From Diospyros lotus (lineage: Eukaryota > Streptophyta > Magnoliopsida > Ericales > Ebenaceae): 64,000 nucleotides of DNA. The notes beneath the pieces are model-generated. The model saw only the letters and a program-made list of their open reading frames with translations, made no database searches and was not told where the DNA came from. The DNA lies in contig NC_068352.1 of assembly GCF_014633365.1 (NCBI RefSeq), positions 22,539,310 through 22,603,309 on the forward strand. The letters run 5' to 3'. The first letter of the stretch is position 1; every line of letters begins with the position of its first letter. The position numbers and the translations under genes are program-made. Shown here piece by piece: positions 9,838 through 61,933 of this stretch.

Positions 9838-9841
9838 TTCA

Positions 9842-31359: not shown

Positions 31360-31894
31360 ATGGAAGTTTGGAATGTGGATGAGCAAGTCGGACAAAACAA
31401 GATGCTTCCACCACCGATGGGAACCTTTCAAACTCGTGAAGAACTCCTTAAGCATGTTCGGGATTTTGCTTTGGCACAGGGCTATATGGTATCTATTAAG
31501 GATTCTTCCAAGGATAGATATGTGACGATTGCATGTGACCGAGGTGGTGTCTATCGCAAGAGGGTCAAGACTGGAGAAAATATGCGTCAAAGGAAAGCAT
31601 CTTCTCGCCTTACAAATTGTCCTTTTGAAGTTGTGGGCAAGAAGGATGATGACTTGTGGGTGTTAAGCATTAAACACGGAGAACACAATCATGAACCTTC
31701 AAAAAGCAAATACGATCACCCTTCTTGCCGCCGCTTTTCAGAAGAAGAGATCCTTATCATAAGAGAGATGACTGTTGCTGGTAAACGGCCATGGCAAATA
31801 CTGAAGGTACTGAGGCAAAAAAACCCAAATCTAGTATCTGATTCGAGGAACGTTTACAATGTCAAGGCTAAGATTCGCAGAGAGATGCTATCAG
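31360..31894 (+). CDS. FAR1-type DNA-binding domain exon (178 residues plus one base)
   Basis: The ATG at 31360 gives MEVWNVDEQVGQ; the extra codons upstream back to 31345 have no ATG. Residues 20-115 form a FAR1/FHY3-type WRKY-GCM1 zinc finger with Cys59, Cys87, His109 and His111 in place. Residues 120-178 are a basic helical tail (SRNVYNVKAKIRREML). FAR1-family proteins are nuclear transcription factors derived from Mutator-like transposases, and most continue into a MULE transposase domain; none follows here. The frame closes at 31921 if unspliced. A donor, TCAG before GTCAGG, at 31894/31895 leaves phase 1. That matches the acceptor of the DEP1 exon at 48407, so it may be the N-terminal part of a fusion, or else a truncated FAR1 gene. 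No frame damage is seen. Confidence 0.88.
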
Positions 31895-33115
31895 GTCAGG
31901 ATCTTTTACCCTTTTTTTATTGATAGGGCAGAGACATATAGAACATGTAGCATGCGTATATTTTTGCTTCTAAATTTGCAAATCATGGCAAGGTTTACAA
32001 ACTGCTCATATGTAGGATTGTTGGGTCACCTTCTGCCATTTACACATTTCAGATAGGAAAAACTGCTTGCCGGAATTTTCCTATTAGGCTTGATTTGGAA
32101 TCTCAAAAAGAACTTAGAATTACTTAGTCAAGTTATCTTGAACTATTCCAGATTCATGCAGCCCGTACAGCGGAAGGACCGTATAATTTTCATGTCATTG
32201 GTCGGTTAACTTATGTTTCTTTTACTCATTGTAGTAGGCTTTATAGGATAAGGTAGTTTTGTGATATAGGATGTACACAGAAATAGTATTAATTGTATTA
32301 TTTTTCCTGGGGTGTGATGTATCTGTAATCTTTGTCGTTATTTTGCAATCATTATTTTGGGAGTACATGTTTAGATTTATACACCAACTTAGGAAGTTTG
32401 TTTTATGGAACAGATGTTGATATACATTTGTTGTATATCCTTCCAACAGATATTAAACTGATAATAGATTCCAGATCTAATCTGAAGGCCTGACAATATA
32501 TACCTCTCCATCATTTTGGGTCCCCCAGCAAATAATAAGCTTGTCATAGCCTGGAGAAGTTATAATGATATTATCTTCTTTCTTATCCATTATGACTTCG
32601 TTGAAACAAATTGCCTTTATTCCTCTAGAGTCTAGACTGTTGAGAAGCTAGCTAGGACACCGTTAAGTGACAATAGGCACTCGTACCAATTGAAATTAAT
32701 TTTCATGATATTTTCAAGAATTAAGGAATTGGTGAGTATAGTAAAGTTCATTCTTTGTTTTCTAAATCTAATGACCATAATCTCGTAGGCAGCATTTGAT
32801 GATTAACTGCAAGGAATAAAACCTTTTTCTTTCAATGCAGAATTTGCTTTTCTTAATTATTTTCTTGAGTAAAATCTCTTTCTAAAACTTTCCGACATTT
32901 TAAATGAGATTGTATAATCAAAATCTTACTATCTAAAAGTTCTGCTTAAATTAGATGCATGTGGAAAGGGTTTTCCATCTTTCTTTCTTTTTACTTTCTA
33001 TAAAACTACTTTTCCATTAACTCTTTTGACAACTAAATAGCATATGTTTATTTTATATCTTTTGGTTGGATAGGGTGCAAAAGAGAAAGATCAAGAAATA
33101 TTTGGTGGGCGACTC
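31895..33115 (+). other. Intron or 3' flank after the FAR1 exon
   Basis: Intron-like, T-rich DNA. No further FAR1 or MULE coding sequence was recognised in it. Confidence 0.5.
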
Positions 33116-33118
33116 TTA

Positions 33119-33970
33119 GGGTGCGTTTGATTGCAAGCATAGAATTTGCATGGAAAGAAAATATTTTATAGGCAATTGAATTGCCTCGAATTAAATTTCA
33201 GGGAAAATGTTAATTGAAGGTGTTTGATTGGCTTAATTTTTTACCTAAAAATTGTTGTACTCTTCCAACTTTTGATGTTTGATTGTCATTATTTTCTATG
33301 GAAATAATCACATATACACATGTAGTTAATCAATAATCAAATACACAAATCAATAATTAACTACATAAAATAATCAAATATACGTATATTCAAAAAATAA
33401 ATCAAATATACATACACAAAATATTCAAAAAATAAATCAAATATACATAGAAAAATATACATACACCCAGCCACAACCGCCGTTGCTGTTCAGCCACAAT
33501 CGCTGCCATTGCTGTTGCCACCATCGCCGTTCAGCCACTCTCATCGCCACTGCCGCTGCCATTGCTCATTGCAGCTGCTACCATTCTTCAGTCACCACCC
33601 ACGGCTTTGCCGTCATCGATGGCCGCTGCTGCCATTGCCGCTGCCATTGCAACCGCTACCATTATCCAATCACTGCCAACGCCTTCGTCGTCGTCGATGG
33701 TCGCCACTACCAATCTCCGTTGATGGGCGGTGGTGGAAGGGGAAGGCCAGTTGCTGCTGGGTGGGTTTTTCCATTTCCATGGACAATGAAATCTCCCCGC
33801 CCCGCTAAATGAGAAAATCAATTCCAGCAAAAGTGAGAAAAGAGCATCACGTGACCACAACTTGGAAAATATTTTTTATAGAAAATTTGGCCAATCAAAC
33901 ACCTCAAAAGCTGGAATTTGAGTGGAAAATAACAATTTTTCATGGAAAAGAATGCAAATCAAACAGACCC
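33119..33970. mobile_element. MITE of PIF/Harbinger (Tourist) type with GC-rich core, 852 bp
   Basis: The left end is GGGTGCGTTTGATTGCAAG. The right end, read inward, is GGGTCTGTTTGATTTGCAT. TTA lies on both sides (33116-33118 and 33971-33973), the usual Harbinger duplication. The outer thirds are AT-rich. The core at 33470-33800 is a degenerate (GCC/CCATTGCTG)n GC island with a palindromic tendency. It encodes no transposase; Ala/His-rich ORFs come from the repeat. Confidence 0.75.
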
Positions 33971-33973
33971 TTA

Positions 33974-34350
33974 GTTATAAGTGTCTTAAAGAAGATATTG
34001 CCACAAATTGAGATGATTGACGAGCTAGAATTTTCATGTAGCCGACTGCACCTAGTGGGATTAGGAGCTTGTTTGGTATCATTGTGCTCTCAAAACACAG
34101 CTGTTTTTGTTTTTAAGTTTTACAAAAGCAGTGTTTGGTAAAACACAACTTTTTAAACTGCAGTTACTTCTCTAAAAAACATGTTAAGCTGTTTCAAAGA
34201 AAAAGCAAGGGCCCCATGGCTTTTTATAAAAAGTAAGCAACTTATAGTGGGACCCACATCTATTAATATTCCACATTCTGTTGCCAAACACTAATATTTA
34301 ACATTGCTTTTGCAATATGACACAAAAAGGCACAACACAGCACAACAATG
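33974..34350. other. Intronic or repeat-like DNA, family not identified
   Basis: GCTTGTTTGGTATCATTGTG on the left and CACAACAATGTGTC on the right suggest weak inverted ends of another small element, but they could not be confirmed. Confidence 0.3.
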
Positions 34351-34680
34351 TGTCAAGGCTAAAGCCAGGCAATGAATTCTCCCTAATTCAGTGTGAATAA
34401 GGAAGTTAACGGAGAAGCAGAACAGAGAAAATAGAGAGAGGGAGAGTTTAGAAAGAGGGAAATAGGGAGAGTGAAGAAAGAGATTAGTAAGGAGGAAGAA
34501 ACGATGTTCTCATTAATTCCTCGATGCCCCAATCTGAGAGGATCAATGGGGTTATATACAATCTGTCGGAGGATTCCCACCAATGACAGCTTCTACACCC
34601 TTCTATTGTTATAATTGCTCAACTTCTACACCCTTCTATTGTTATAACCACTTGCATGTGACTCCCCCCTAGATGTAACA
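34351..34680 (-). repeat. Probable 3' LTR of a chromovirus remnant
   Basis: It begins TGTCAAGGCTAAAGCC and ends CTAGATGTAACA on the plus strand, a TG...CA unit of 330 bp. It contains a tandem copy of CTTCTACACCCTTCTATTG. Read on the minus strand it would follow the chromodomain fragment at 40867-41420 once the intervening copia element is removed. Its 5' partner and a clear polypurine tract are missing. Confidence 0.5.
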
Positions 34681-34712
34681 AACTCATATAATGGCAAAAC
34701 TGTTGGAGATAA

Positions 34713-35814
34713 TGTAACGACCCGTTCGAGCGATAGGAAGGACCGGAACAACTTACCCTGATGGGCCTACATGAACTTCCCAGGGGGGTCACCCATCCCT
34801 AGATTACCCCAGGTCAAGCACGCTTAACTTGGGAGTTCTTTGCCAACATTCAGCCCAAAAAGTATCCAGCTGGTGTTGTTTTTTTTCTTACACTATCCTC
34901 GATATATACTAACTTCTCTGGGCTCTCGGGGTATTACATTCTCCCCCCCTTAAGCACATGACGTCCTCGACATGCGACCTTACAACCGGTCCCAGATCTC
35001 CCCCCTTGCATGGCCGATGTGGGATTCGCCTAAGGTGCCTACACGCACCCTCCATAGGGGCCTACACACCCTCCTCGGGACTCAACCTCCTCGCTGAGGT
35101 TTGCCCCACCACTGCGCTCAGAGGCTCGGGGGTCGGCTCTGATACCATTTGTAACATCTCGTTCGAGCGATAGGAAGGACCGGAACAACTTACCCTAATG
35201 GGCCTACACGAACTTCTCAGGGGGGTCACCCATCCCTGGATTACCCCAGGTCAAGCACGCTTAACTTGGGAGTTCTTTGCCAACATTCAGCCCAAAAGTT
35301 ATCCAGCTGGTGTTGTTTCCTTCCTTACACTATTCTCGATATATACTAACTTCTCTGGGCTCTTGGGGTATTACATTCTCCCCCCCTTGAGCACATGACG
35401 TTCTCGTCATGTGACCTTACAACCGGTCCCAGATCTCCCCCCTTGCATGGCCGATGTGGGATTCGCCTAAGGTGCCTACACGCACCCCCCATAGGGGCCT
35501 ACACACACCCCCCTCGGGACTCAGTCTCCTCGTTGAGGTTTGCCCCACCACCGCGCTCAGAGGCTCGGGGGTCGGCTCTGATACCACCTGTAACGACCCG
35601 TTCGAGCGATAGGAAGGACCGGAACAACTTACCCTGATGGGCCTACACGAACTTCCCAAGGGGGTCACCCATCCCTGGATTACCCCAGGTCAAACACGCT
35701 TAACTTGGGAGTTCTTTGCCAACATTCAGCCCAAAAGGTATCCAGCTGGTGTTGTTTCCTTTCTTACACTATCCTCGATATATACTAACTTCTCTAGGCT
35801 CTCGGGGTATTACA
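34713..35814 (-). mobile_element. Cassandra TRIM with three LTRs and two internal domains
   Basis: Three LTRs of 226 bp lie at 34713-34938, 35150-35375 and 35589-35814. They are separated by internal segments of 211 and 213 bp. The outer ends read TGTAACGACCCG and GGGTATTACA, flanked by GATAA at 34708-34712 and 35815-35819. On the minus strand each internal segment starts with TGGTATCAGAGCC, the initiator-Met tRNA primer site, and ends with a G-rich polypurine tract. The LTRs carry the 5S-RNA-like AAGTTAAGCGTGCTTG core, changed to AAGTTAAGCGTGTTTG in the right-hand one. No protein is encoded. Confidence 0.95.
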
Positions 35815-36090
35815 GATAATCTTAGAATAAAATAGATAAAGCCGGACAAAGGGAAATGAATTCAAAGATGCAACGAAGATAAGAAGATAGAGCAGAAGAT
35901 ATATTCGAAAATATAGGAGTTTGAATTACTCCAAATCTGTTATTGTATTTTAATTTTAAATACCCTAATCTTTAGCTAAGAGATAAGAAGTATAGCTGTA
36001 TTTAAAGTAGCTTGTATCCTAGAAGAGATAGAAAAGTTTATGTGCATTTGAGTTCTTTTTCAATCAGAAATCCAAGTCTGAAATTGTTCA

Positions 36091-36103
36091 TGGTATTAGA
36101 GCT
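36091..36103 (+). other. Copia primer-binding site
   Basis: TGGTATTAGAGCT directly follows the 5' LTR end TTGTTCA. It matches the initiator-Met tRNA 3' end complement with one change (TGGTATCAGAGC is usual). Confidence 0.85.
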
Positions 36104-36139
36104 TGGTTCTCGATAATCAGCACACCAACTTTTCTCAAG

Positions 36140-37135
36140 ATGGCCGACTCCTCAACCACAAGTGCAACCTCCAATATAGGTCCTCCTACAGCCTCTCGAT
36201 CGATTCTTCCAACCCTTTCTCCTCCCTTCTCGTTAGATCACCATACTCTCCAAATCACACAACATAAACTTAATGGGACCAATTTTCGGGAATGGTTTCA
36301 GTCAGTTATGTTGGTGATGAAAGGCAAAGGAAAAATGGGATATCTCATAGGAGTAATACCTCAGCCAGATCTTGAAACTACTGAGCATGAAGCATGGGAT
36401 GCTGAAAACTCTATAGTGATGGCTTGGCTCATCAATTCCATGGAACCAAAGATAGGGCGAACCTATCTATTTTACAAGACAACAAAAGACGTATGGGATG
36501 CTATCCAGAGCCTATATTCAGACATGGAGAACACATCACAATGCTTTGAGGTGAGATCATCTTTGAGAACCACCCGCCAAGGTAACCATTCGGTTACTGA
36601 ATACTATAATATTCTATCTGAATTATGGCAAGAAAATGATCTGTTTTATGATATACAATGGGAGTGTACGAAGGATGGAGTAAAATATGCAAAGATTGTG
36701 GAGAAAGAGCGGGTATTTGATTTCCTACATGGATTAAATCCGGACGTAGATGAAGTCTGCGAAAGGCTCCTAGGGATGAAACCCTTCCCTTCCATCAAGG
36801 AGGCCTTTGCTGAGGTTAGGAGTTAGGAAAGCCGAAAAAAGGTCATGTTAAACACAGCTCCTGAGGTAAATAATTAGGATGGATTAGCACTTACAGCCTT
36901 GAAGCAGAGGACAACAACACCTCGAGGAGATCATGTAAAAGACCGACCTTGGTGTGATCACTGCAAAAGACTATACCATACTAAAGATACTTGCTAGAAA
37001 ATACACGGGAAGCCTGCTAATTGGAAGGGGAGAAATCAGAATCAGAAAAGGCCACAAGCAGCTTATGCAGTGACTGTAGAAGAAGGTAAAAGTTTTACCT
37101 TATCCTCTAATCAATTGGAGGTTTTGCAGTAGGTT
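36140..37135 (+). pseudogene. Copia gag (Gag polyprotein with zinc knuckle), stop-interrupted
   Basis: The ATG at 36140 opens 228 residues of copia-type Gag (UBN2-like), including FREWFQSVM, a W-rich centre and VFDFLHGLNPD. Gag coats the RNA genome in virus-like particles. A TAG at 36824 and another at 36875 end the open part. The frame continues to a zinc knuckle (C-X2-C-X4-H-X4-C) at 36953-36994, followed at once by a TAG at 36995 where copia elements have Trp. A further TAG is at 37130. Confidence 0.88.
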
Positions 37136-40100
37136 TTTAAACAAACAGGGATTTCAAAACCCTCCAATTCTGAGGAAGTAATGAATCCAACCACCTCCCA
37201 AGTGACCCAAGGTAAGAGTTATAATTGCTATCTTTCTAAGTTACTAAATGGGACTGATTGGATTGTTGATACAGGGGCCTCCGACCATATGACCGGATCC
37301 ATGTGTGGCATGGTGGATTACAAACGTTGTGATAGGAATATAAAGGTGACTATGGCAGATGGTACAATATCGTATGTTGAAGGGAAATATTCAGTATACT
37401 TAAATGATTTATGGCTAAAATCTGTCTTATATGTGCCCTCTTTAAGATGTAACCTGCTTTCTATTAGCAAAGTCACTAGAGATATGAACTGCAAAGTAAT
37501 TTTTTCTCCTACTCAATGTGTGTTTCAGGACCTAATTTCGGGGAGAATGATTGGCAATACTGAGGAGAGAGAGCGCCTTTACTATGTGAAAGGACCAGCT
37601 ACTATTGCTGCTTCTGTTCTGATTCCTAGGTTACAAAATTTATTTGTTTCTTCTGCTATTTCAGATTCTAATATTCACTTATGGCACAAGAGATTAGGCC
37701 ACCCGAATTTTCGTTATTTAAAGCTTTTGTATTCTCGTTTATTTATAGCAATAAAATAAGTGATTCTTTCAACTGTGAACAGTGTATTCTTGCTAAACAA
37801 ACAAAAATCTTCACATCCTATTCATGCGTATAAACCAACCAAACCTTTCTACATAATCCATAGTGATGTATGGGGACCAACTAGGATACCAAATTTGACT
37901 AACACTCGCTAGTTTGTTACCTTCATTGATGACCATACCAGGGTATGTTGGGTATTCTCGATGAAGGAAAAATCTGAAGTTTACATAGTTTTCAAAAAAT
38001 TCCATCAAATGGTCCGCAACTTATTCCACACATCCATCCATATTCTTCGATTAGATAATGGAAAAAAATACTTCTCATCCGAGTTTGAGACATATTTAAG
38101 TGACAATAGTATTTTTCACCAAAGCACATGTCCTTATAATCCCCAACAGAATGGTGTGGCAGAAAGGAAGAACCAGCATTTGCTCGAAATAGCCTGAACA
38201 CTCATGTTTTCTAGTTCTATGCCTACATCCTATTGGGGAGAAGCCATTCTCACTTCAGCCTATCTCATTAATCGGATACCTTCTAAAGTTCTCAGCTTGA
38301 AAACCCCTTTAAACACTCTGATTACCGCATATTCTCACCTTACCCGCATTCTAAACTCTTTGTCCCCTAAAGTTTTCAGCTGTACTGCTTATGTTCACAA
38401 CTACAGCTCTAAATTACATCCAAAATCCTTGAAGTGTGTATTTGTTGGTTATTCTCCTACATAACAAGGATACAAGTGTTATTGTCCTAACACAGAAAAA
38501 TTCCTTGTGTCTTGTGATGTCTCCTTTCTAGAACATCAGTCTTATTACCTTACAACCAATTTGCAGGGGGAGATTTCAAGTGTAGATTAGGGTAGGGATA
38601 ATTGTTGGGATGTTAGTCTTCTTCCTGAAACAGTGACCTCATCTATTCCTATTTCGAATGATGTAACAGATTTAGGGGGTGAAGAACAGCAGCAACAGTA
38701 ACATATTTCAGAAACAGGTCCTAAAACATGATTGCCAATGAAAGTATATCCAAGGAGAAAGGATCTTGAACCAAGGCAAGATCAATCATCAGCCCCGGGA
38801 CAAGGTCCAACACAAGAAGAGGAAGAGAGGACTGAATCAGTAGCACCATTTGAGGCACCCAGCAAGTCCAACAATGCAGAACCAGAGACTGCAGAAGCTG
38901 AACCATATGGCCTAGATATTCCAATTGCTTGGAGAAAAGGAGTATGGTCATGTACTTGACATCCTCTAACTAACCATGTGGTGTACTCTCAACTATCCCA
39001 AAGTTTCATGGCATTTACCATCAAAGTGGATGAGGTGCAGATTCCAAAAAATATTAATGATGCCCTGCAGAAACCAGATTGGAAAGCAGCTGTTATGGAG
39101 GAAAAGGATGCCCTAGTGAAAAATGGTACATGGAAAGTGGTAGATTTGCCTCAAAATAAGAAAATAGTAGGGAGCAGATGGGTATTTGCTATAAAACATA
39201 GAGCTGATGGAAGCATTGAACGATATAAAGGCAGGTTGGTGGTCCAAGGATTCATTCAAACTCAAGGTATAGATTATGAAGAGACCTTTGCACCCGTCGC
39301 AAAGCTCAATTCTATACATGTGTTACTTTCAATTGCAGCTAATTTAGATTGGGAACTATACCAACTTAATATAAAGAATGCATTTCTTAATGGAGATCTA
39401 GAAGAAGAGGTATATATGAGAATGCCTCCCAGATTTGAAGAAAAAGGGAAGGCTTGCAGATTAATAAAATCGTTATATGGACTGAAACAATCTTCTAGGG
39501 CCTAGTTCAAGCGGTTTAGTACTACATTGCATTAGCTAGGGTACCAACAAGGGTAGTCTGACCATACTTTGTTTACTAAACATGTTGTTAATGGCTTTAA
39601 AACTATCTTAGTTGTCTATGTGGATGACATTATCGTTACAGGTGATGATAAGCAGGAGATTTCAGCATTAAAGGAGCAATTACAACAATTTTTTGAAGTA
39701 AAAGACCTTGGGAAGATGAGATATTTTCTTGGGATGGAAGTAGTAAGGAGCAAGGAGGGAATCCTTATATCCCAAAGAAAATACACTCTAGACCTATTAA
39801 AAGAAATAGGCAAGTTGGGGTGTAAACCAGCCAATACACCGCTAGAAACCAACTGGAAATATAATGAAGATGGGGTTGAGAAAGCAGTTGACAAAGAAAG
39901 GTATCAAAGATTAGTAGGAAGGTTGATATACTTGTCTCTTAACGTCCAAACATCTCATATGCAGTGAGTAAAGTAAGTCAATACATGCATTCACCAACTA
40001 GCAAACATCTTGATGCAGCTTATCATATACTAAGATACCTAAAAGGGACTCCTGGCAAAGGTATTTTGTTTAGAAAGACCGAAGACCGAGGAATTTAGGG

Positions 40101-40548
40101 GTTCGTAGATGTTGACTGGGCTGGTTCCTTAGAAGATAGCAAATCAACTTCTGGTTATTGCGCAAAACTATGGGGAAATCTTGATACGTGGAGAAGCAAA
40201 AAATAAAGTGTGGTAGCTAGGAGTAGTGCTGAAGCAGAATACCGAGCCATAGCCCAAGGTATTTGTGAAGTAATATGGCTAGAAAAGTTCATGAATGACT
40301 TGAAGATGCCTAATATTGATCCTACAAGACTATACTGTGACAGTAAATTTGTCATTAGTATAGTAAATAACCCAGTCTAACATGATCAGATGAAGCATGT
40401 AAGAATTGATAGGCATTTCATCAAACAAGAGATTGAAGAAGGAGGAATAAACCTAGTATATATCCCTATCGGTCTATAAGAAGCTGATACTCTTACCAAG
40501 GCAATGAACAAACAAGGATTTGAAGTGATAAGAGGCAAGCTGGAATGA
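37136..40548 (+). pseudogene. Copia pol: protease, integrase, reverse transcriptase, RNase H, stop-interrupted
   Basis: The order is typical of copia. The protease motif WIVDTGASDHM is near 37258. GAG-pre-integrase LWHKRLGHPNF is near 37678. The integrase core has IDDH, LDNGKKY and NGVAERKN (37925-38175). The reverse transcriptase runs about 38978-39970 with VYVDDIIVTG near 39613. RNase H has SSAEAEYRA near 40224 and the end is at 40548. At least 14 in-frame stops interrupt it, including 37910, 38195, 38462, 38957, 39503, 39533, 39554, 40096, 40204, 40378 and 40477. A short out-of-frame stretch lies near 37745-37807 and one base is lost near 39942. Most stops stand for Gln, Arg or Trp codons. 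It cannot produce a full polyprotein. Confidence 0.92.
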
Positions 40549-40578
40549 AGGATATCTATTCTCCAACTTGAGGGGGAG

Positions 40579-40861
40579 TGTTAGAGATAATCCTAGAATA
40601 AAATAGATAAAGCCGGACAAAGGGAAAGGAATTCAAAGATGCAACGAAGATAAGAAGATAGGGCAGAAGATATATCTGAAAATATAGGAGTTTGAATTAC
40701 TCCAAATCTGTTATTGTATTTTAATTTTAAATACCCTAATCTTTAGCTAAGAGATAAGAAGTATAGCTGTATTTAAAGTAGCTTGTATCCTAGAAGAGAT
40801 AGAAAAGTTTATGTGCATTTGAGTTCTTTTTCAATCAAAAATCCAAGTTTAAAATTGTTCA
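40579..40861 (+). repeat. Copia 3' LTR
   Basis: It begins TGTTAGAGATAATCC right after the polypurine tract CTTGAGGGGGAG and ends AAATTGTTCA, followed by the duplicated AAAAC. Confidence 0.95.
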
Positions 40862-40866
40862 AAAAC

Positions 40867-41420
40867 TAAAAATCACATGAAAATTCCACCCCAAAACCAC
40901 CACCACCACCACAAATTTTTTGTCCTAAAGAAATGCTGAGAAGGCTCGCCGATTGGGGACACTGCTTGAGTAGGTTAGGCAAGTTTTCCTAGGTACTGTT
41001 GTTTGCACGGAGATTTTCCCACTTCACTAATACCTGTATGAGTGGTGCCCCGTGTTTGTACACCACATGCTTGTCCAATATGGCTTCGAGCTCCATAGCT
41101 TTGTTAGTCTCCTTAGGAAGTAAGGGTAATTTAGGACTCACCGATTGTGTCCCCACTAACTTTCAAAAGAGAGACGTGGAACACGGGGTGAATTTTTGAA
41201 CTCTCAGGCAACTGTAAACGATAAGCCACCCTCCCAATCTTGGCAATTATGGGAAATGGCCCATAATATTGTGGGCTTAGTTTAGACACCTGTCCTTGTG
41301 TGATGGACTTAAGATGAGGATACCTCAGCCTCAAATACACTTACTCCTTTACTGAAAACTCCTTTTCACTCATTTTTCTATTAGCAAATTGTTTCATTCT
41401 ATCTTGGATGTCACGAGGTA
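40867..41420 (-). pseudogene. Chromovirus (Ty3/gypsy) pol C-terminus with chromodomain, fragment
   Basis: Minus-strand frames give the integrase C-terminal region (KLSPQYYGPFPIIAKIG, then IHPVFHVSLLK at 41131-41340). A chromodomain-like stretch follows (MELEAILDKHVVY, then QVLVKWENLRANNST at about 40995-41105). Chromodomains guide integration into particular chromatin. A stop replaces the conserved Trp just after NNST, and a frame change separates the two parts. The upstream pol is missing beyond about 41420. The copia element lies between this piece and its probable 3' LTR. Confidence 0.82.
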
Positions 41421-41762
41421 GCAAGGTATTACAGAAAAGTGAAAACAAAAAAAGAAAAGATGGTCATGGACTCAATGAGAGAGACAGAGAGAGGGTGCCT
41501 CACAAGTTTGCATGTGGAAGCTTTAGAAGTAAGCATCCCAAAATGATGTTATTTGATTGATGTAGCTTGAACAAAGTACTCTACCCTAGGCTTTAGCCAG
41601 TAGGACCATTGCATTTTTTAACTTGTTATGATAAGCATCACCTTATGCAAATTATAAAGAAAGACAATCCATATAGCTTACATCACTGGCTGAAAAAGTC
41701 TTAATTGTGTTTATCCTGTGTGCAGATTTCCTGATTTAGCGATCACCTAAAACAATTTTTTG
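41421..41762. other. Intronic DNA, nothing recognised
   Basis: Low-copy-looking sequence between the chromovirus fragment and the inverted repeat. No exon was identified. Confidence 0.45.
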
Positions 41763-43615
41763 GCTTTGAATGGTTTGGAATGCCAAAACTCATCCCAAAG
41801 CCTTTATTAATAGAATTTCCCGGCTAATGATATTCTGCCACTTGACTCACTATGAATGGCCTTCGTTTTTGTGTCCTATCATCTCATGCCACTTGTCCCA
41901 TCATTATGGGGCTTTATCATGACTTTTCTTTTAGCTAATCATATTGCACCACGTGTCGCCTCAATTATTGTGCATCATTATTACTATACATGTGCAATAA
42001 CCAAATTGCGCCACTTGTCGAGCACAAGCCAATCACATGTTGCCACCTCATGCCTCATCATAACTCTCCATGTTCAACCAGTTACAAGCCTCCACATACC
42101 CTTCCACTTGCACCTCTATTATTACCTTCCATGTGCAACCAATCAAAATCCTCCAAATATCGCCAACTCGTGCCTCATTTTACGTGCCTTATCATTACTT
42201 CTCCTCTGGTCCAATCATCATTTGCCAAGTGTCCTGCCACCTAGCACCCTCATCATGACTCATAATTACCTCCCAAATTGTGGCTAATCACTTTGTGCCA
42301 TTTGTCCCAAGCTAGATTGAAATAATATTTGGAATCCAAAGTTGAAATGTAATTTGGAATCCAAAACTAGATTTAATAAGATTTGAAGTCCAAAACTAAA
42401 TTTGAAATCCAAAGCTATATTAGAATAAGGCTTCACATCTGGAACCTTTGTGTTATTGCTCTTTGGATCGAACCTTTCAAATATTGTACTCTTGCCTCGA
42501 ACATTTCAATAATTGCACTTAGACCCTTTGCAACTTGGTCCTTGGGCCGTCCTAAAATTTTCTTCATGCCCTTGGAGAAGGGGTTTATTATGTTAATACC
42601 TCAGGATTTTGGTAAATTACACTTGTGCCCCGGGTTTTTCAGAAACTGCACTTTCACCCGAGCTCAAAAATTACGATTTTGCCACTAGTTTCGAAACTGT
42701 ACTTTTACCTCAGAACTTTCATAATCTCTTGAAATGTCATTTTTCCTCAAACATTTGAGTTCAAAATCCTAGGGTATTAATGTAATAAACCCTTTTTCCG
42801 GGGGGCATAAAGGAAATTTTATGACAGCTGGGGATCAAGTTGCAAGGGGTCTAAGTGCAATTATTGAAAAGTTTGAGGCAAGAGTGCAATATTTGAAAGG
42901 TTCAGGCCAAAGAGCAATAACACAAAGGTTGCAGATGTGAAGCCTTATTCCAATATAGCTTTGGATTTCAAATTTAATTTTAGACTTCAAATCTTATTAA
43001 ATCGTTTTGGATTCCAAATTACATTTCAATATAACTTTGGATTTCAAATATTATTTCAATCTAGTTTGGAACAAGTGGCTTAAAGTGACTAGCCACAATT
43101 TGGGAGGTAATTATGAGTCACGATGAGGATGCTAGGTGGTATGACACTTGGCAAAGGATGATTGGACCAGGGGAGAAGTAATGATGAGACACGTAAAATG
43201 AGGCATGAGTTCGCGATATTTGAAGGATTTTGATTGGTTGCACATGGAAGGTAATAATGGGGGTGCAAGTGGCAGGGCATGTGGAGGCTTGTGATTGGTT
43301 GAACATGGGGAGTTATGATGAGGCATTAGGTGGCAACATGTGATTGGCTTGTGCTCGACAAGTGGCGCAATTTGGTTTGATGCACATGAATAGTAATAAT
43401 GACGCACAAGAATTGAGGCGACACGTGGTGCAATATGATTAGTTAAAGGAAAAGTCATGATGAAGTCCCATAATGATGGGACAAGTGGCATGAGATGATA
43501 GGACACGAAAACCAAGGCCACTTGTGGTGAGTCAAGTGGCAGGATATCATTGGTCGGGAAATTCTATAAATAAAGGCTTTAGGTTGAGTTTTGGCATTCC
43601 AAATTATTCAAAGTC
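41763..43615. repeat. Large inverted repeat: two arms of about 850 bp with a 150-base loop
   Basis: The left arm 41763-42611 is the reverse complement of the right arm 42762-43615, with roughly 85-90% identity by eye. TTTGGAATGCCAAAACTCA near 41776 pairs with TGAGTTTTGGCATTCCAAA near 43587. Within each arm a degenerate unit built on TGCCACTTG...ATCATNA repeats about every 45-60 bases. CTATAAATAAAGG near 43564 looks like a core promoter. Similar-looking ORFs on opposite strands are produced by the symmetry and are not genes. The arms may be two opposed LTR copies. Confidence 0.88.
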
Positions 43616-44614
43616 AAGATTATGCCATATTGAGAGGTGCAAAAGTGAGGGGAAGATTCTGCAAAAAAGGGAGGGGGGGGGGGAGCTCTGCCAAAAATAA
43701 GGGAGAACTGACCTTGCTGGAATTTTTTGGTCTTCCTCGGAGTTCGTGCCAAACAGTCTGAAAAATAGTGAAAAAACCTAACCCAACAAGCGTGAACAGT
43801 ACACTCGAAAGGTAAATTGTCAAGGTGAGTGGTTCCTGCATTTTTTGTGACACTTTGAGCATTTGTTGCTTCACTTGTGCATGGGTGTTGACTTACATAT
43901 CATATTTTCCTTGGTTTACTTGTATTCCTTCTGCTTTGTTATATATCATGTCATTTTGGTGACTGTGGTTGGTTGTTGGGACATCATGAGTGATCTCATG
44001 ATCTTGCGGTGAGCCAAGATCTCGTGCTCTTGCGATTTATCAACGTGTTGCCATGATGACTACCATAGGAGAGGTTTCATATTGCATATTGCATTTGCAC
44101 ACATATATTCTTCTTTCATGAACCATTTCACTTAGATATTATTGTCTAACTTGGGTGTTTCACAGTTCTGGGATATTCAACATCTCAGGTATAATAGACG
44201 TGTCAGGTACTATAGGTGCAAGCCCGAGCAAGTGGCAAGGAGGTGGTGGACATTCAGTTTAAGCCTTCTTGAAACGTTATATATGATTTTGTAGTACGAT
44301 TGTTGTATTGTAAATAGCGGCTACGATACTTAAATTACAAGATGTATGGGTGTATGTATGAAGCTTCTATAACTCTATAAGGGTGTGAGATGTATGTTTG
44401 GAATCTGTAATAAACATTACAGCTACTATGAAGATGCGTGTGTGTGTGTTTGTTCTATCGACCTGATTTAAGGTAACATCATGGAAATCCTAGCTATTTT
44501 AGCATTTTAGGTTCGATCCTTACTTCCGCTGACAAAGAATTTTCCATAATGCTCGAGTGATGTACATAGCATGTAATAGTTGTAATTAGCTTCTTAACAT
44601 ATTAAAAATACAAG
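43616..44614. other. Repeat-like DNA between the inverted repeat and the next LTR element
   Basis: Moderate GC sequence with a G run near 43670-43682 and later TGTGTGTGTG near 44443. It reads like part of an LTR or leader, but no ends, primer site or coding domain were recognised. Confidence 0.35.
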
Positions 44615-47906: not shown

Positions 47907-48406
47907 TGTCATGAACCTAAGACTTAACCTAGGATCAGTTTGGGAATCGGAAGAATCCGATTCAACTAAGGTCAAGAACAGAAGGAAATTAGGGGGAATT
48001 TGAAAGAATGAGGGAGAGATTAGAAGAAGTGTAGGGGGATTAGAAGAATAGAAAAGAAGGAGATGAAGATCAAGGAAGGGGAGAGAATTTGGAGGAGGAG
48101 AAAAACAGATTAAATTCATTAATTTCTTTGATAAGGAAACAAACCCATTACAGCAATCTTATATAGGCATATTTGCCTTCTAATAGCCTAGCACATGCTC
48201 CCATGTGCCTCTAGCCACTTGCTAAAATATTCCTATCAAACTATTCTATCCTATTACAATAATACCCTTTTATTGCTCATAGGGTCATGACAATATGGAA
48301 TATGTGTCTTGACCTCTCTTCCTCTCATATAAATCCACAGAAATGAAGACATTCAACTTCATTTTTTGTGACTTCAATCTCTCTCTCTCTCTATATTTAT
48401 TTGTAG

Positions 48407-51400
48407 GCAAAAGGATTGCACCACCACCGACCTCTTTGGGAATTGTGAACAACGGTATAATGGGGGCTGGAATACCATCAGAACAGATGGCTGCAAATGG
48501 CGCGACAATGCAGGAATCCATTGACAATCCATATCTGGAGAATGATGCTGTTAAAGAAACTAAGGTGTTGGCATCTGAACTCTGTCGGCACTTCTATACC
48601 CTTGGATGGTTATTAGGTTCTGGAGGCAGCATTGCCATCAAAATTCATGATGATTCCATCCCCAAGTCTCGCCAGCTGATTGTCATGTCTCCTTCTGGTC
48701 TGCATCTCTCTCCCCATTCAAATCTTCTCTGCTTGCATGAATTCTTTGTGTTCTTCTGGCATGATATTTGTATGGCTTCATCTCTCTGTGGAGTTTTTCT
48801 TTCTTTACTTGTGGAAATATGTTTGCTGTGCAGGTGTACAGAAGGAAAGAATGGTTCCAGAAGACATGTATGTGCTTTCTTCTGATGGATTTATTTTGTC
48901 TACACCTCCTCTCAGGCCCTATCCATATAAACCCCTGAAGTGTACTGATTGTGCTCCTCTCTTCTTAAAGGTAACTGTGTTTTCATTCAGTTTTTACTTT
49001 TCATTTTATTTTATTTATTCATGTTATTTTATTTCATTTCTTTTGTGTTAGTGTGATGACTGATGAGGATAGAGGCCTAGCCTGCTGGCTCATCTTTTAA
49101 TCCAAGAAAACTTTTGGCTTTATAGTGGCTTTGGTGTCATGTTGTTTCTTGACCTTTGAGGTCATCTGTGTTCAAGCTGCAGTTATGCGCAAAATATTAG
49201 AGTCGCAAGTTGTAGTGCATTGGAATCCATTGTTTCTATGCTCATAATAGAATCTTAGGATTTGAAGTGACAAAATATTTTATTGAAAATACTGATGTTC
49301 ATTGACGGTTTTTGTAGGGTTGTGTTTTATTTCAAATCTTTGATTATTTGAACCAATCATGAAAGCATTAGACAGCCTCAAAACATTGATACAGTTCAAA
49401 TCTTTTATTGTTTGAACCTTAATTGTGGAGGTGGTACTTTTTTGGGGTCTGCTCTCTATGAATAAAGAAGCACCTTTTTGATGGTATATATTTTACTATA
49501 TATAATGACTTTGGGGAACATGATTGGGATATGTGACATAGTTAGTGCTGTAGATATGCAAATTTATTTTTTATTTATATAATAGCTATATAAAACTAGG
49601 AAATTGTATATTTACTATTTAGATCAGTTGACTTTTGATTCTTAGAATCCCTGATTTTTAGGAATTGATAAAGAGGTGGAATCTCCTTAATTAGGTAGAC
49701 CTTTGAATATAAATACAGTCGATGCACAACACATTCAAAAATAACAAAGGTTTTACTTTTCTCCACAGTAACAGATAACATAATGAGAATAGAATCAACT
49801 TTTTCATTGATCAATGCATATTTTTGTTTGATTTTGATGGTGCTTTGTGGGTTTTCCATGATCTTTTCAATGAAAAAGTTGATTCTATATCCGATAATAC
49901 ACTGATAGCATAGGCTATATCTTTGCAATAAAAGTTTGTGTTCCCTTTGGAAATCTGGTTTTGGGTTAAAAAGATCCTTTGAAGAAAGAAGTAATTCTTC
50001 TAGATCTTGAACTGAATATTGCTTTACAATATATACTAGATGGGAGATCATATCTCGATATCTTTGAAAAGAGAATAATAGAGAAGGTCACGAAAAATAC
50101 AAAAGGGAAAGAAAGAAAAAACAGAAAAAAAAAAAGAACTTCTAAGAAATCTCCAATAATCCTAAGAAATAGGAAAATGACATATTTAAGAAAGGAGATA
50201 TATTTAGGAATAAATCCTAAGAAATCTCCATCAATCTTCAACACTCCCCCTTCAAGCTGGAGCCGTAGCAGATCTTGGAGGAAAATCCTCAGGTAATCTG
50301 GCCTGAAGCATTGTAGAAATCATCCTCATCATTCCATCCATCCTTTGGTTGGTGTTAGTCGTAATTCCATCTAGCCTTTGGTTGACATTAGTGAGTTGTT
50401 CCGTAAAACTTCTTTCCATGTTTTGCACAACTTCTCTGATTAGTGCATTTTCTTCTCTGCTAAGACTCACCTCCTCCTGTGTCTGTTTTAAACCTAGCTC
50501 CAGAACATCAAGCCGCACCTCCAACTGCTTCATCTTTGTTCCTTCTGCCATTTCCTGAATTCACTTACTCAAAAAAAATTGTTTTCTGATCTGCTTCAAA
50601 GGACCGACTATGAGCAGCAATCACCTGTGATTGGCTAGATCTTATTCAGCCTCCGGACTCAATTGATTTGATCTGCCTTCAAATTCTAATTGAAATTAAC
50701 TGCTGGGTGACAGATCTGAATCAGCCTCCTGAATCAACTGTTTCTGTATCAGCTTCTAAAATTCACCTAGCTTGCCGGAAATCGCTTGGCTCTATTTCAA
50801 TTTAACAGCTGAGAAACAGCCTATGGGTATTGCCTGAATTTGCTTCAATTAACAGCCGAGAAACAACCTATAGATATGGCGTGAATCTGTTTCTAGCACT
50901 CGCCTTCCTAACTCGCCTCAATTGCAATTCGGCAGTCAAGGACCACCGGCTTTGATACTAAATGTCATGCACTTAGGGTTTAGAAAGGAATTTGGAAGAA
51001 ATTGGGGGAGAGAGCAAAAAGGGAGGGAGAAACAGAGCAGAAAGAGAGAGAGAGCAAAGAGAATTGAGGCAGAACAGGGGAGATTGAGAGAGAGAGAAAT
51101 CTAGAGAGAAATGACTAAAATTCAGGTTATCATTCGACAATAACATTCTCTAACTAATCTAGCTTATTTATGGACTGTTTTATCTTTCAGTTAGTAGTTA
51201 ACTGAAAGATACAACATAAATCAACAGCTTAAGGTACAATACAATAAATGCATTATACTACAACTACTATTACATTTACTACTATACCCTCGGGGTCAGT
51301 GTTCTAAAAATCGGCCTAGGCAGTTGCCTAGGTGCCGTCAAGGCGCTAGACGGCCACTAGCTGCCACGATTATGGCATAATTGGCCCCCTTAGGTGCGGT

Positions 51401-54400: not shown

Positions 54401-57400
54401 AAAAATACATTTAGGTAGATCAAAAACTCCTACTCACATAACATTAGTATCTTTATTTGTTTTGATTCCTATCAAGTCTCTCACAATAGGGAAAAAACTT
54501 GTTCTCAAGATTTGTATTACCCAAACATATAGTGAGTGGTTGTGGGTGGGTGGGCTTAGAAAATTCATTTGCAACCAATGCCTTAATAGATGGAGAGAGT
54601 GTAGCTTGCATTGCTTTGAATGATGTGACTACACTACTCTTGAGAGGAAATTCTTAATTTGGTCAAGCAAGGGAAAGAGTTTCATAGATTGAAGTTGGTG
54701 GGTGAACGCACGTATTCCAATTTCCTAACCTGCCATTTGAACTTGCTTTGCACATATGCCATTCTAAGTTGGCTTGATGCTGGAATCTTGCCGGAGATTG
54801 GTTGCTACTAGGGGGTGCGCACGGTGCGGTTTGGCCGGTTTGAACCATTTTCAGCTCGCTAAACCGCTAGTGCGGTTTTCCGACCAAACCAGATCGCGGT
54901 TTGGTTGGGGTGTGGCCAAATCGCACCGCATTTGTGGTTTGATTTGTTGTGGTTTGAAAATAACCTGTTCAACATTTCAACATACAACATCCAACCTGTT
55001 ATAAATAAACAAAACATGCCTTAACATTGTTATAACCTATCCAACATGTTCAACAATTATAACCTGTCCGCAACTATTTAGCAATTATAATCTATTGGCA
55101 ACATATTCAACAACTATTTATCAATGAATTATAGTTGGCAACCACCAATCATAACTAAGTATTTAAAGTCCAAAACGGCAAAAACATGTGACGCAATAAC
55201 ATAACCATTCAAAATAAGATAAGTTACAATCCGATCAAAATACAAACTTAAAAGTTCAAAATTCACAACACAACCACACATGCTCCAAGCCTCCGACTTC
55301 AACTTTATCACTAATCAATGTTTACAGTATCTGTTGTCATAGTGGACTTATCTGTAATATTAAGAGAAACAATAAAGTTAGAAAAATAAAATGTTAAGAG
55401 TTAATACAAATAAAATAATAAACATGTTTGATGAGTAAATAAAAAATTACCATATTCAATTGATTCATAAGTAGCATGTTCTTCTAATACTGAAGTCATA
55501 TCCAATGGTAAAGACGTCCCTCTCAACCAATTTTGGCAACAAATCAACGCTTCTACCATAGATGGACACAATGAACTCCGAAAGCAATCAAGCACCCTAC
55601 CTCTAGTGCTAAAAGCTGACTCAGAAGCGACTATTGACACTTGGATGGCAAGAACATCTCGAGCAATCTCTAATAGGATATGGTACTTTGATGAAGTTAT
55701 CTTCCACCAATAAAATATATCTCAAAAGTATTATTTCTTATATCCTCATTAGGCTCAGCTAAGTACCTTTCAAGCTCATTTTTTATTTCAAAAGCATTAT
55801 CTTCAATACATTCTTTCTCAAAATCAGATTTGAACATGTTAACATCATCATCCTCATCAGAATCCACAACTGAAATCTTTTGTTCAGAACTTGTCCCACC
55901 TTGTTTATGTTCTCTTGATTGTCCATTTGAGTTATTTGTTGCATAAAAATGCACTAACTTCCCTAGAGCGCTCTTGATAGAATCCATTACATTTTTAACT
56001 TCATCTTCAGAATAGAGCTTGTGTAAACAAAATGCGACATATTTCATTTTGTACCTAGGATCAAGCACAACCGCCACATAAAGAAGTATATTTTGTTTTT
56101 CAATGTTGCCCCTATACTTATCAAATTTTATCTTCATGCTTGAAGCCATATCTTTCAAGATTGATTCGTATGATGAACTCCACTTGTTTAGTCTTCTACG
56201 TACATTACAAATTTCATGAAAATAATTATTTGCAGTAACATTCAAAGAGGCACTAAACACGAGAGTAGCATCATAAAAAGTCTTCAAAAACTTGCAGGAC
56301 GTTGCACAATTCTCCCAGTCTTTAGAATTTGGTGGCTTAATAGGCCTTTTCCCATTTCTATCATTTTCACAAAAATGTTGCAAATAGAGCAAATCCTCTT
56401 CTTCCAACAATTTAAACATGTCAACAAATCTCAGTGCATGCTCCAACATTAAATAAGTGGAGTTCCACCTTGTTGGAACATCCAAGCACACAAGAGCCTT
56501 CTCTTCTTTACAAGTATTCTTGACACAACTTTTGAATCTTGCCAACCTTGAAGGAGAAGCTCTAACATATCTAACTGCGTTATGTATAGCCATAATAGAG
56601 AAGTCCAGTTCCTTTAAGCTCTCACCCACTACCAAATTAAGAATATGAGCCGAACATCTCACGTGTAAGAATTCCCCATCACAAACAACACTGTTCCAAA
56701 TTTGCAATCTTTTCTTAATGTGCCCAATAGCCCCATTGTTAGAAGCAACATTGTCAATTGTGATTGTGAAAACCTTCTCAATACCCTATTGTTTCAAACA
56801 CGCGTCAATTGCTTTACCAATTGTCTCTCCCTTATGATTTGGAATTTCACAAAAGTTTAAGATTCTTTTTTGTATTTTCCATTCAAAATCTATAAAATGA
56901 GCCGTAAGCACCATATAGTTGACATTTTGAATAGAAGTCCATGTATCAGTGGTAAGGGAGACTCTTTGTGAATTCTTAACAAAAAATGACTTCAACTTCT
57001 TCTTCTCATCATTGTAAACTCTAATTATATCCCTAGCAATTGTAGTGTGTGAAGGAGGATCAAACTTAGGGCATGCAACACCACAAAATAATCTAAAACC
57101 TTCTTGCTCCACAAACCTAAATGGCAATTCATCAATGACAATCATTTCGGCACATGCTATCCTACAAGCTGCCTGACTAAATCCCATAGTTAGAAGATTA
57201 CTACCTCCAACACTTCCATCCTCATTGTCACTATTCTTTAGATAACGTAAAATCTTATGCTTCTTATCTTTTACTCTGTAAGGATTCTTCTTACATTGAT
57301 TGTTTACATGGTTCCAAAGAGTACTTGTCCCATTTTTTCTAGTATCACTTGCATAATTTTTACCACAATAGTTGGACACAGCTCTAGGGTTTGAAGGGTC

Positions 57401-59437
57401 ATCCACTTTTCTTGTAAAATGATCCCATACTTCAGATTGCTGCCTAGGTTTCTTTTTCATACCTTTGTCCTTAAACTTAGAAGGTAATGGAGGTTTAGAA
57501 CCACTGCCTTCATTGAGGTTTTTAACGGATGAATCATTGATGCTACTATCTGTTTCCATCTGCCATTGAAATTGAAGCAATAAAAAATTTGAAATGAATC
57601 ATTGGTGCTACTTTCATTGAGATATTTTCTTAGAAATGAATTATTTGGAATTAACATTGACTGAAAGATCAATTCTCAAAAAAATAAAAAATTCTAAGCA
57701 AATTAGACTGTAGTATAAGTCTTGTAATACATCTAGATCCATGAACACTTAATTATGAAATTTGTTATGATTTTAATATATTACATCAAGAAAATAGAAA
57801 AACTATTTTCAAGTTTAATCCTCATTCCAACTGAGCGGCTAGTGGCCACACAAAGAAACAGGGGTGCTCATGTCATGTGGCAGGCAAACCACAACAGTCA
57901 ACAGGAGTGTTTTGCTCTCTAGTAGGGACAATTAATATAGGCTACTCCACACTTGGCCAAGACCCATTTTAGGCTGCAGTTAGTCAATTGTTAGCCGAAT
58001 CTCCTATCAACTTGAGAAGTGCTCACGACCTATTTTAGACCCAATAACAACAAACAAACAAACACTAGACATTAATAAAATACGCACACCTACCTATTGG
58101 AGAACCGGTCTTCGCTGTCAAGTACATAGAATGGTCCTCGTTGGTGAGATGGGCGAACTGCTTCGGCCCCAATTATGTCTCGTAGATAGCTCTAGTTCCC
58201 CGTCGGTCCTCTCTTCTGCCTCGATCTGCCACAGCCGGCAGTGGAACCGTGGGCATGGCTGCCGACGATAATCCAAGGATGAGGAGAAAGAGAAAGCAGA
58301 AGAGAAGACAATGGAAGGGTGCAATAGAAGAGAAGACGATGGGCCGCTGAGGTGTCGAGGGATTTGTGATTGTAGGGGCTGGGGTGTTGATTAGGGTTGC
58401 GCTGGTGGGGGAGGGCCGGAGGGGTTTACCGATTAGGGTTGCGTGGGTGGGGGATGGGGCTACTGATTAGGGTTGCGCGGGTGGGGGAGGGGGCTGTCGA
58501 TTCCAATTAGGGTTGTGCGGGGCTGTTGGGGTACTTTTTATAATAATATTTTTAATTTTTTTTTTTATATTCTCTTGGGCGGTTCGGTTTAAAACCGAAC
58601 CGCCAACTGTACAAACCACGAACCACGAGGTTTGTACAGCCTCCAAACCGTTTTGGACTGCAAAAAAAAAAAAAAAAACCCGACCGGTTCGGTTCGGTTC
58701 GGTTTGGCCGGTTTCCACGGTGCACTGGTTTTTTTGAACACCCCTACCGAGGATGATTTTCTGATCCTATGGAATTAATGATGAAAGTCAACCTTTCTGT
58801 TTTTTTTGGTAGTCTCCTAAACTGTATAGTTTCTTAAGCTATATAGTTTTCTAAGTTGTATAGTTTGCTAAGCTATATTTGCAAGTTCTTACTTCTATAT
58901 AATTGTACTACTCGACCAAAGAAATATAGTGAAGTTCATTATTCTCCAAATTCTTCACCTGTAACCTAATACCACCTAAATTCTATCACACAATCTATTA
59001 AAAGTCCTATTACAACTAGATAAATCACAAGCTCCTAATCACATAAAACTAGTATCTTTATTGTTTTGAATTTCCTATCGTTTAGATTGCTGATTTGTTA
59101 ATAATGTTGCCTATATTTTCTGTAGGTTCTTTAATTCAGTTAAAGCTTATAATATTAATTTTTCAATGTGCCAACATATTTTCATTTGCATAGCAGTCAA
59201 GGGAAGAAAAAGTTTGTATACATTTTATAGATAGTAATGAAAAAGAAAATTCTATGGGATGATATTGTTTATATATTTTCTTTTTCTGTTTTGGATTTTT
59301 TTTTGCTTGTTTTAATGCATCCTTTTATTTATGTCCTTCAGGTTTGTGAGATATGTAAGGCTGGTGCTGTAATTCACAGCCATGGAATGGAATCATGTGT
59401 TGTAACAATGCTCCATCCCTTCTCAAATGAATTTAGA
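48407..59437 (+). CDS. DEP1: Methylthioribulose-1-phosphate dehydratase domain of a DEP1-like bifunctional enzyme (three exons, 3' incomplete)
   Basis: Exons are 48407-48697, 48834-48970 and 59342-59437. All have GT donors and AG acceptors and stay in frame. Translation from ATG 48460 (MGAGIPSEQ) or 48487 (MAANGA) leads into [11 protein letters not shown], the class II aldolase-like domain. QLIVMSPSG, then [15 protein letters not shown], and [12 protein letters not shown] follow; the last holds the two zinc-binding His of the family. Plant DEP1 dehydrates methylthioribulose-1-phosphate and then acts as enolase-phosphatase in cytosolic methionine salvage. Only the first third is here; nothing after NEFR at 59437 was found to 64000. 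Changes such as GWLLGSGG and VCEICKAG at usually conserved places suggest a diverged or decaying paralogue. Reading continues open upstream to the acceptor at 48406, in phase with the FAR1 exon at 31894. Confidence 0.85.
50252..50551 (-). pseudogene. Gag N-terminal fragment of Ty3/gypsy type
   Basis: A 99-residue ORF starts [18 protein letters not shown] and is a coiled-coil-like helix rich in Glu and Gln ([18 protein letters not shown]), as at the start of many plant gypsy Gag proteins. It stops in AGCTTGAAGGGGGAG, so the stop lies inside the copia polypurine tract. The capsid domain is missing. Confidence 0.6.
50963..52330 (-). repeat. Gypsy-type LTR (split) with adjacent primer site
   Basis: It begins TGTCATGCACTTAGGG and ends GGGGTCGTGACA on the plus strand. 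Without the inserted MITE (51297-52316 and its duplication) it is about 340 bp. The minus-strand TAGTATCAAAGCC at 50948-50960 next to it resembles the primer site of the element at 44620-48292. The position relative to the Gag fragment fits a 5' LTR, leader and gag start of one element. Confidence 0.72.
51297..52316. mobile_element. hAT-type MITE with GCGCCTAGGCGG-like ends, 1020 bp
   Basis: The left end is CAGTGTTCTAAAAATCGG and the right end, read inward, CAGTGTTTCCAAAACGCG. It is flanked by CTCGGGGT (51289-51296) and CTGGGGT (52317-52323), an 8-bp duplication that lost one base. Subterminal GGCCTAGGCAGTTGCCTAGG and GCGCCTAGCGCG are self-complementary. The centre is AT-rich with repeats of TTTATATATATAAG. 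No transposase is encoded. Confidence 0.75.
52331..52387 (-). pseudogene. Start of copia gag, cut after 19 codons
   Basis: The minus-strand ATG at 52387 gives [19 protein letters not shown], downstream of the copia primer site. The reading frame then runs into the gypsy LTR at 52330. Confidence 0.5.
52853..53317 (+). other. DEP1 intron 2, no feature
   Basis: T-rich intron-like sequence with no exon or repeat recognised. Confidence 0.55.
53323..53722. mobile_element. Solo LTR, 400 bp
   Basis: It begins TGTTGGAATATC and ends AGTTATGTTCA, flanked by AATCC at 53318-53322 and 53723-53727. The short length and the TGTTGGAATATC start fit a copia LTR. GTATATATACCCC near 53588 may be its TATA box. 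An internal direct repeat (GACCAAGAGATAAGGTTGG type) occurs at 53361 and 53408. No internal region remains. Confidence 0.85.
53728..54809. other. DEP1 intron 2, weak repeat relationship to 58980-59090
   Basis: AGTCCTAATAAAACTA...CATAACATTAGTATCTTTATTTG near 54390-54460 resembles AGTCCTATTACAACTA...CATAAAACTAGTATCTTTATTG near 58998-59062, on the other side of the hAT element. No gene was recognised. Confidence 0.4.
54810..58746 (-). mobile_element. hAT (Ac-like) transposon with decayed transposase, about 3.9 kb
   Basis: The left end TAGGGGGTGCGCACGGTGC and the right end, read inward, TAGGGGTGTTC...CAGTGCACCGTGG share an interrupted inverted repeat. Both continue into GGTTTGGCCGG / CCGGCCAAACC. 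Subterminal GCGGTTTGG and CGGTTCGG repeats fill both sides. A matching 8-bp duplication was not found: GTTGCTAC lies on the left and CCGAGGAT on the right. The transposase lies on the minus strand. The subterminal region at 58370-58500 holds a tandem GATTAGGGTTGCG repeat. Confidence 0.8.
55432..57559 (-). pseudogene. hAT transposase, broken
   Basis: The ATG at 57559 starts [15 protein letters not shown] zinc-finger region follows ([28 protein letters not shown]), in which the first Cys of the usual CNYCGK is Ser. The catalytic-core region has [19 protein letters not shown] and [13 protein letters not shown]. The C-terminal dimerisation region is [15 protein letters not shown], then [13 protein letters not shown] and [10 protein letters not shown]. 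hAT transposases excise and insert DNA with 8-bp duplications. A TAG at about 56784-56786 replaces Trp in the phrase before [13 protein letters not shown] frameshift near 55712, before WWK-ITSSKY, moves the C-terminus to another frame. It is not functional as read. Confidence 0.9.
58815..58875. repeat. Short tandem repeat, unit near TATAGTTTNCTAAGCTG
   Basis: About four diverged units of 16-20 bases (CTGTATAGTTTCTTAAG, CTATATAGTTTTCTAAG, TTGTATAGTTTGCTAAG, CTATATTTGCAAG). Confidence 0.75.
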
Positions 59438-61931: not shown

Positions 61932-61933
61932 TA

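Follow-up and report, generated by a model that had tools for sequence, protein, structure and literature searches.

The window analysed here, a 64,000-nucleotide stretch of Diospyros lotus DNA (NC_068352.1, positions 22,539,310 to 22,603,309; C15 of a 630-Mb genome), contains the 5' portion of a single chimeric gene, in which an exon for a FAR1-type DNA-binding module is followed by those of a diverged DEP1 copy (methylthioribulose-1-phosphate dehydratase / enolase-phosphatase). We hold this to be practically beyond doubt, and the same near-certainty, taken for gene structure alone, applies to the statement that the FAR1 exon and the DEP1 exon belong to one gene. An NCBI-named 'E1 2' protein, P0001, has an identical FAR1-DEP1 junction. 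The parts of the gene lying in the window are:

31360..31894, + strand: exon 1, FAR1 (WRKY-GCM1-type) DNA-binding module and three-helix segment; phase 1 end, donor GTCAGG
31895..48406, + strand: intron 1, 16.5 kb, transposon-enlarged; no further exon within it in P0001
48407..48697, + strand: exon 2, linker and beginning of the dehydratase domain
48834..48970, + strand: exon 3, dehydratase, CTDCAPLF
59342..59437, + strand: exon 4, dehydratase zinc ligands IHSHG; missing from the annotated isoform P0001

Re-reading of the sequence bore out the phase-1 end of the FAR1 exon at 31894 and its donor GTCAGG, both of which had been noted in an initial annotation of the window. The acceptor proposed there (tttgtag followed by GCAAAAGG, at 48406/48407) does take phase 1, and the join of exon 1 to exon 2 is free of stops, as was claimed; P0001 has the same junction. 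That no other coding exon was recognised there in the 16.5 kb between them agrees with the course of P0001 through this interval, where a Copia element is found. In DNA fetched beyond the window end we found nine further DEP1 exons (93142-124947 in extended coordinates), intron 4, between exons 4 and 5, being about 34 kb long. The full gene model comprises 13 exons with GT-AG introns and encodes an open protein of 730 aa over 93.6 kb (31360-124947, extended coordinates). A processed (retro) DEP1 copy was ruled out because the introns are retained. P0001 lacks exon 4 and also continues past one donor, and is therefore one isoform.

Fused relatives and the phylogeny of the fusion

The fused model was compared with 5.8 billion proteins, and the fused matches reported here are those among the best 120 of 1040 matches. 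A FAR1 module stood ahead of DEP1 in 27 of the 120, some of which are isoforms or near-copies; among them are matches named from Camellia, Nyssa, Bertholletia, Xanthoceras, Liquidambar, Craigia and Castanea, which include proteins covering 90-99% of the fused model. A protein search for FAR1 plus class II aldolase architecture had been proposed as a check, and this arrangement was found. The longest contig of P0019 (601 aa) measures 1902 nt and has no space for introns, so that P0019 looks like a spliced transcript, with a processed copy as the alternative. In P0024, the next DEP1 exon follows directly on the FAR1 exon, likewise in phase. Fused-gene models (P0001, P0013, P0020, P0023 and P0025) repeatedly omit the exon that carries the dehydratase zinc ligands. 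On these matches, the FAR1-DEP1 chimera is a conserved eudicot gene.

The possible fusion gene of the initial annotation was upheld by P0001 and the other fused proteins, which also answer its caveat that splice phases match in one case out of three. Its proposed product, a WRKY-GCM1 zinc finger on a methylthioribulose-1-phosphate dehydratase, stood as far as the fused protein is concerned and was refined in four respects: the enzyme part comprises the complete dehydratase and the enolase-phosphatase, the phosphatase nucleophile is lost here, a complete ordinary DEP1 exists on C10, and the FAR1 module scores under the Pfam cut-off. The annotation had further kept in mind two separate neighbouring genes with a chance phase match, which we now regard as extremely improbable. 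The one-in-three phase match and the long intron are compatible with two genes, and the annotation of Acer yangbiense assigns the two parts to successive loci, EZV62_020385 (P0230) and EZV62_020386 (P0033). However, two separate genes were rejected, and the possibility was in the main refuted, by P0001 and 26 further fused proteins together with the 1902-nt contig of P0019. Moreover, the Acer FAR1 model ends in REMSSSEQDTG plus four residues, and the Dipteronia DEP1 model P0029 has the matching REMSSCEQDTGKK near its start; therefore, the Acer loci are more simply explained as a split gene.

A further possibility is that the main product is a FAR1-only (FRF-like) protein made by read-through into intron 1, the fused transcript being minor. 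Read-through, for which the initial annotation had named an end near 31921, meets a stop at 31921-31923, and the frame is open for 8 residues beyond the junction Gly. Some transcripts may indeed stop near 31921, and some DEP1 transcripts may begin at a promoter of their own. Short FAR1-only open reading frames (ORFs) of 180-261 aa with 74-81% identity occur in relatives (P0214-P0229), most of them reading past the junction into differing letters, and one, P0219, is an annotated Ziziphus protein. Many of these short ORFs, however, may come from genomic contigs in which the frame continues into the intron, the enzyme exons are open and conserved, and P0001 and P0019 are fused. We consider a mainly FAR1-only product improbable.

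In a DEP1 tree of 113 rows, from which seven named rows and rows with less than 380 aa of DEP1 had been dropped, 21 fused rows, the window gene included, fell inside a clade of 34 (Shimodaira-Hasegawa-like approximate likelihood ratio test [SH-aLRT] support 99), apart from the 79 plain DEP1 rows. The remaining 13 rows of this clade are models lacking FAR1; two of them, P0029 and P0038, still show remains of the junction, P0028, also a model without FAR1, is almost identical in sequence to the fused P0011, and Acer (P0033) is the case annotated as two loci. The placement of P0115 was inconsistent, being in the fused clade on the 113-row tree and on the plain side of a reduced 42-row tree (eleven named rows and most plain rows dropped). 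In a tree of the FAR1 module, 28 FAR1-DEP1 rows formed one clade (100/97). As these trees are drawn, the FAR1-DEP1 fusion is of one origin.

This genome also has an ordinary, complete DEP1 on C10, where exon matches span residues 1-527 of a Camellia DEP1 with the motifs kept; a single in-match stop falls outside the exon match. The window gene and DEP1 ('E1 1') have both enzyme domains in common, arranged alike, and exon ends such as MSPSG, EFR and AKTQ are common to it and the C10 gene. Unlike DEP1, it adds a FAR1 exon in front, belongs to its own clade and no longer has the phosphatase nucleophile. At C15:33557797-33560105 (L047, L053), a DEP1 match was confined to the phosphatase (residues 284-527, DIEGTTTP kept), with no dehydratase exons reported there.

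The DNA-binding module and its second enzyme partner

Exon 1 alone matched Pfam FAR1 (PF03101) at 24.4 bits (E 5e-5), under the gathering score of 28.1 bits. The scores of four fused DEP1 relatives were 18.9-21.0 bits, and those of proteins joining FAR1 to aldehyde dehydrogenase (FAR1-ALDH) were 20.5 and 17.7 bits, with no match at E <= 0.01 in P0122. By these scores, the module is related to and shaped like FAR1, though below the curated Pfam cut-off, which is probably why databases mostly name the protein as an enzyme alone. The C-C-H-H zinc ligands are present in the window gene (C59, C87, H109 and H111) and intact in all fused rows that span them; the segment with the first Cys is absent from P0023 and P0025. 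In P0002, P0005, P0009 and P0012, Aldolase_II and HAD domains were present and no MULE domain was found at E <= 0.01. A first AlphaFold2 (AF2) model (predicted local distance difference test [pLDDT] 66) gave no significant match with Foldseek; VIA-align of a second model covered only the 998 chains ranked by Foldseek.

A query with the FAR1 part only gave 180 matches, and the best 120 comprised 27 FAR1-DEP1 proteins, 92 with an aldehyde dehydrogenase domain and one MULE protein. Many ALDH-bearing rows are named methylmalonate-semialdehyde dehydrogenase (MMSDH), and the 92 rows come from Tetracentron, Theobroma, Citrus, Camellia, Ricinus, Populus, Vitis and others; they fall into two main groups, with representatives of about 700 and 1060 aa, and Tetracentron belongs to neither. 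A search of this genome for the module (128 matches; 150 of 237 candidates scored) gave matches of at least 57% identity at three places, namely the window and the following two, which we take as putative FAR1-ALDH genes:

C5:40912916-40916002 (L027): FAR1-ALDH locus; first matched ALDH exon about 1.9 kb after the FAR1 exon, same strand
C6:15569914-15572209 (L028): FAR1-ALDH locus; linker and ALDH exons begin about 0.7-0.9 kb after the FAR1 exon

More ALDH exon matches downstream of the C5 gene (C5:40927742-40940372) suggest a tandem copy. The FAR1-ALDH (MMSDH-like) proteins have the same FAR1 module as the window gene, 57 and 64% identical at this genome's two loci; they differ in that their partner is an aldehyde dehydrogenase and in forming a separate clade of the FAR1 tree, with support of only 84/76 (the group count does not include five ALDH rows). 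The FAR1 exon is not simply a copy of a MULE transposon: apart from the three module copies, no relative among the 128 matches exceeds 37% identity.

The only relative with a transposase domain among the matches listed is P0121 (Aristolochia), which has two FAR1-type modules and a MULE domain. Its second module ends in LSG followed by RTPIQ, in the protein sequence, matching the position of the fusion junction. We infer that a single transposase-type exon became attached to two or more enzymes, the simplest route being splicing to downstream exons, and that the module derives from a transposase rather than the reverse. In vertebrate host-transposase fusions, a transposase DNA-binding domain is spliced to a host domain, whereas the partner here is a metabolic enzyme, and the fusion is found in plants.

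With FRS/FRF proteins (the FHY3/FAR1 family) the window gene shares the FAR1-type C2H2 module, putatively of WRKY-GCM1 fold; it differs from them in that the module is under the Pfam FAR1 cut-off and is followed by a metabolic enzyme. It has neither a MULE nor a SWIM domain, in which it resembles FRF proteins as described in PMC6000157. According to a 2021 NAR article (PMC8599713), 1,603 FAR1 genes carry integrated domains, 570 in number, and these genes, like the window gene, combine FAR1 with extra domains. The words aldolase, aldehyde and Aldedh are absent from the main text of that article, though the present fusions may be among its 570. No FAR1 fusion with methylthioribulose-1-phosphate dehydratase, enolase-phosphatase, MMSDH or aldehyde dehydrogenase was found in literature titles and abstracts, a coverage outside which most subscription papers fall.

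Transposons and other features of the window

Three introns of the gene contain transposon sequences:

35804..40861, + strand: Copia long terminal repeat (LTR) retrotransposon in intron 1, with Gag and RVT_2 domains; outside the mRNA
55401..57598, - strand: hAT transposase remains in intron 3 (between exons 3 and 4), with zf-BED and hAT RNase-H domains
60869..63805, - strand: retroelement pol fragments in intron 4, with RT_RNaseH domains in the sole scanned piece, 62766-63278

The direct repeats of the Copia element (35804-36090 and 40575-40861) are 287 bp long and 96% alike. Nested inverted repeats at 41760-43617, with arms of 355, 246 and 172 nt that are 89-93% alike, resemble a foldback element or a miniature inverted-repeat transposable element (MITE), and the second copy of a dispersed repeat pair (44617-45004 and 47904-48294) stops about 110 bp ahead of the exon-2 acceptor. 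Upstream of the chimeric gene lies a plastocyanin-like (early-nodulin-like) exon (10336-10935; Pfam Cu_bind_like), with a likely first exon near 9840-10021.

State of the enzyme domains and proposed function

In alignment with human E-1 (1yns), the phosphatase nucleophile position, which we take to be the Asp of DIEGTTTP, is Ser in the window gene (SIEGTTTP), and an Asp of a later phosphatase motif is Asn. Of 39 rows of the fused clade, P0025 and P0027 being left out of the count, 14 have S, E, T, N or G instead of the nucleophile Asp, whereas it was lost in none of 80 other rows (Fisher p 2.6e-8; the rows are not independent). On the reduced 42-row tree, 10 nucleophile-lost rows require at least 7 changes, of which only 3 are forced by well-supported branches. 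The phosphatase part is predicted to be dead in the window gene and several other lineages. The HSH, MEMIKG and NHG motifs of the window-gene dehydratase align to human APIP (4m6r), so that two His, the catalytic Glu and a third His, whose individual roles we presume, are retained; the residue two places ahead of the catalytic Glu is Asp in the window gene but His in relatives and human APIP. As aligned, the window gene and most relatives retain the dehydratase metal ligands. Models without a dehydratase catalytic exon made up 10 of 41 clade rows, several being isoforms of one gene, versus 0 of 80 others; P0018 and P0033 have HSL in place of HSH, and a conserved Cys is Ser in P0021, P0022 and P0024, three models whose contig has the same length.

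The main rival to the function proposed below is that FAR1 tethers to DNA a working dehydratase (and phosphatase where the Asp remains), either for handling methylthioadenosine-derived metabolites near methyltransferases or for a moonlighting role. The intact metal and catalytic residues of the window-gene dehydratase agree with an active enzyme on chromatin, as do the mean dehydratase identity of 80% across 105 fused pairs and the phosphatase Asp retained in 25 of the 39 clade rows; a moonlighting role of apple DEP1, reported in an excerpt of PMC10514949, points the same way. The missing nucleophile of the window copy, its Asp-for-His substitution close to the catalytic Glu and the clade models devoid of the catalytic exon argue against it, and we judge it unlikely, though a serious candidate.

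When 15 fused rows were compared in 105 pairs, identity averaged 84% in FAR1 (residues 36-178), 80% in the dehydratase and 72% in the phosphatase, and FAR1 identity exceeded that of the dehydratase in 91 pairs. In a separate set of 12 fused pairs, the corresponding ranges were 76-90%, 77-89% and 69-81%, FAR1 being higher in 8; each of the other four pairs includes P0012, a model that begins with other sequence. Phosphatase identity in 7 pairs of plain DEP1 was 81-87%. These values bear on the possibility that the gene is a decaying DEP1 duplicate in which the FAR1 part is an N-terminal relic with no selected role. The longer branches of the clade, its repeated active-site losses and the large transposon-filled introns are what such a passenger might show, but the stronger conservation of FAR1 than of the dehydratase, the intact C2H2 ligands, and open frames and splice sites across 93.6 kb are not, and we find this reading improbable.

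We consider it moderately likely that the chimeric gene encodes a DNA-binding regulator whose multimer or ligand module derives from an enzyme. A FAR1 exon of a transposase-derived gene would have been spliced to exons of a duplicated DEP1, and the spare copy would then have been released from the Yang cycle, which the ordinary C10 gene can serve. The protein would act on DNA through the FAR1 zinc finger, with the class II aldolase (dehydratase) part giving multimerisation and perhaps ligand binding, and with the phosphatase part predicted to be dead. Class II aldolases and MMSDH form multimers. The fused protein may thus be an enzyme turned gene regulator. That there is a eudicot-wide class of such enzyme-derived regulators, in which the FAR1 module on DEP1 and on MMSDH-like ALDH, two unrelated enzymes of amino-acid metabolism, would make multimeric DNA-binders that could directly read methionine or branched-chain metabolites and set expression, is a more tentative and rather doubtful extension.

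One conserved protein, mostly named as an enzyme only, ties transposon domestication to primary metabolism, and proteins called 'E1 2' are not safely assumed to be Yang-cycle enzymes. If its DNA-binding part works, the gene would offer a testable case of an enzyme turned regulator in a pathway that feeds ethylene and polyamines, with FAR1-ALDH as a parallel in the same genome.

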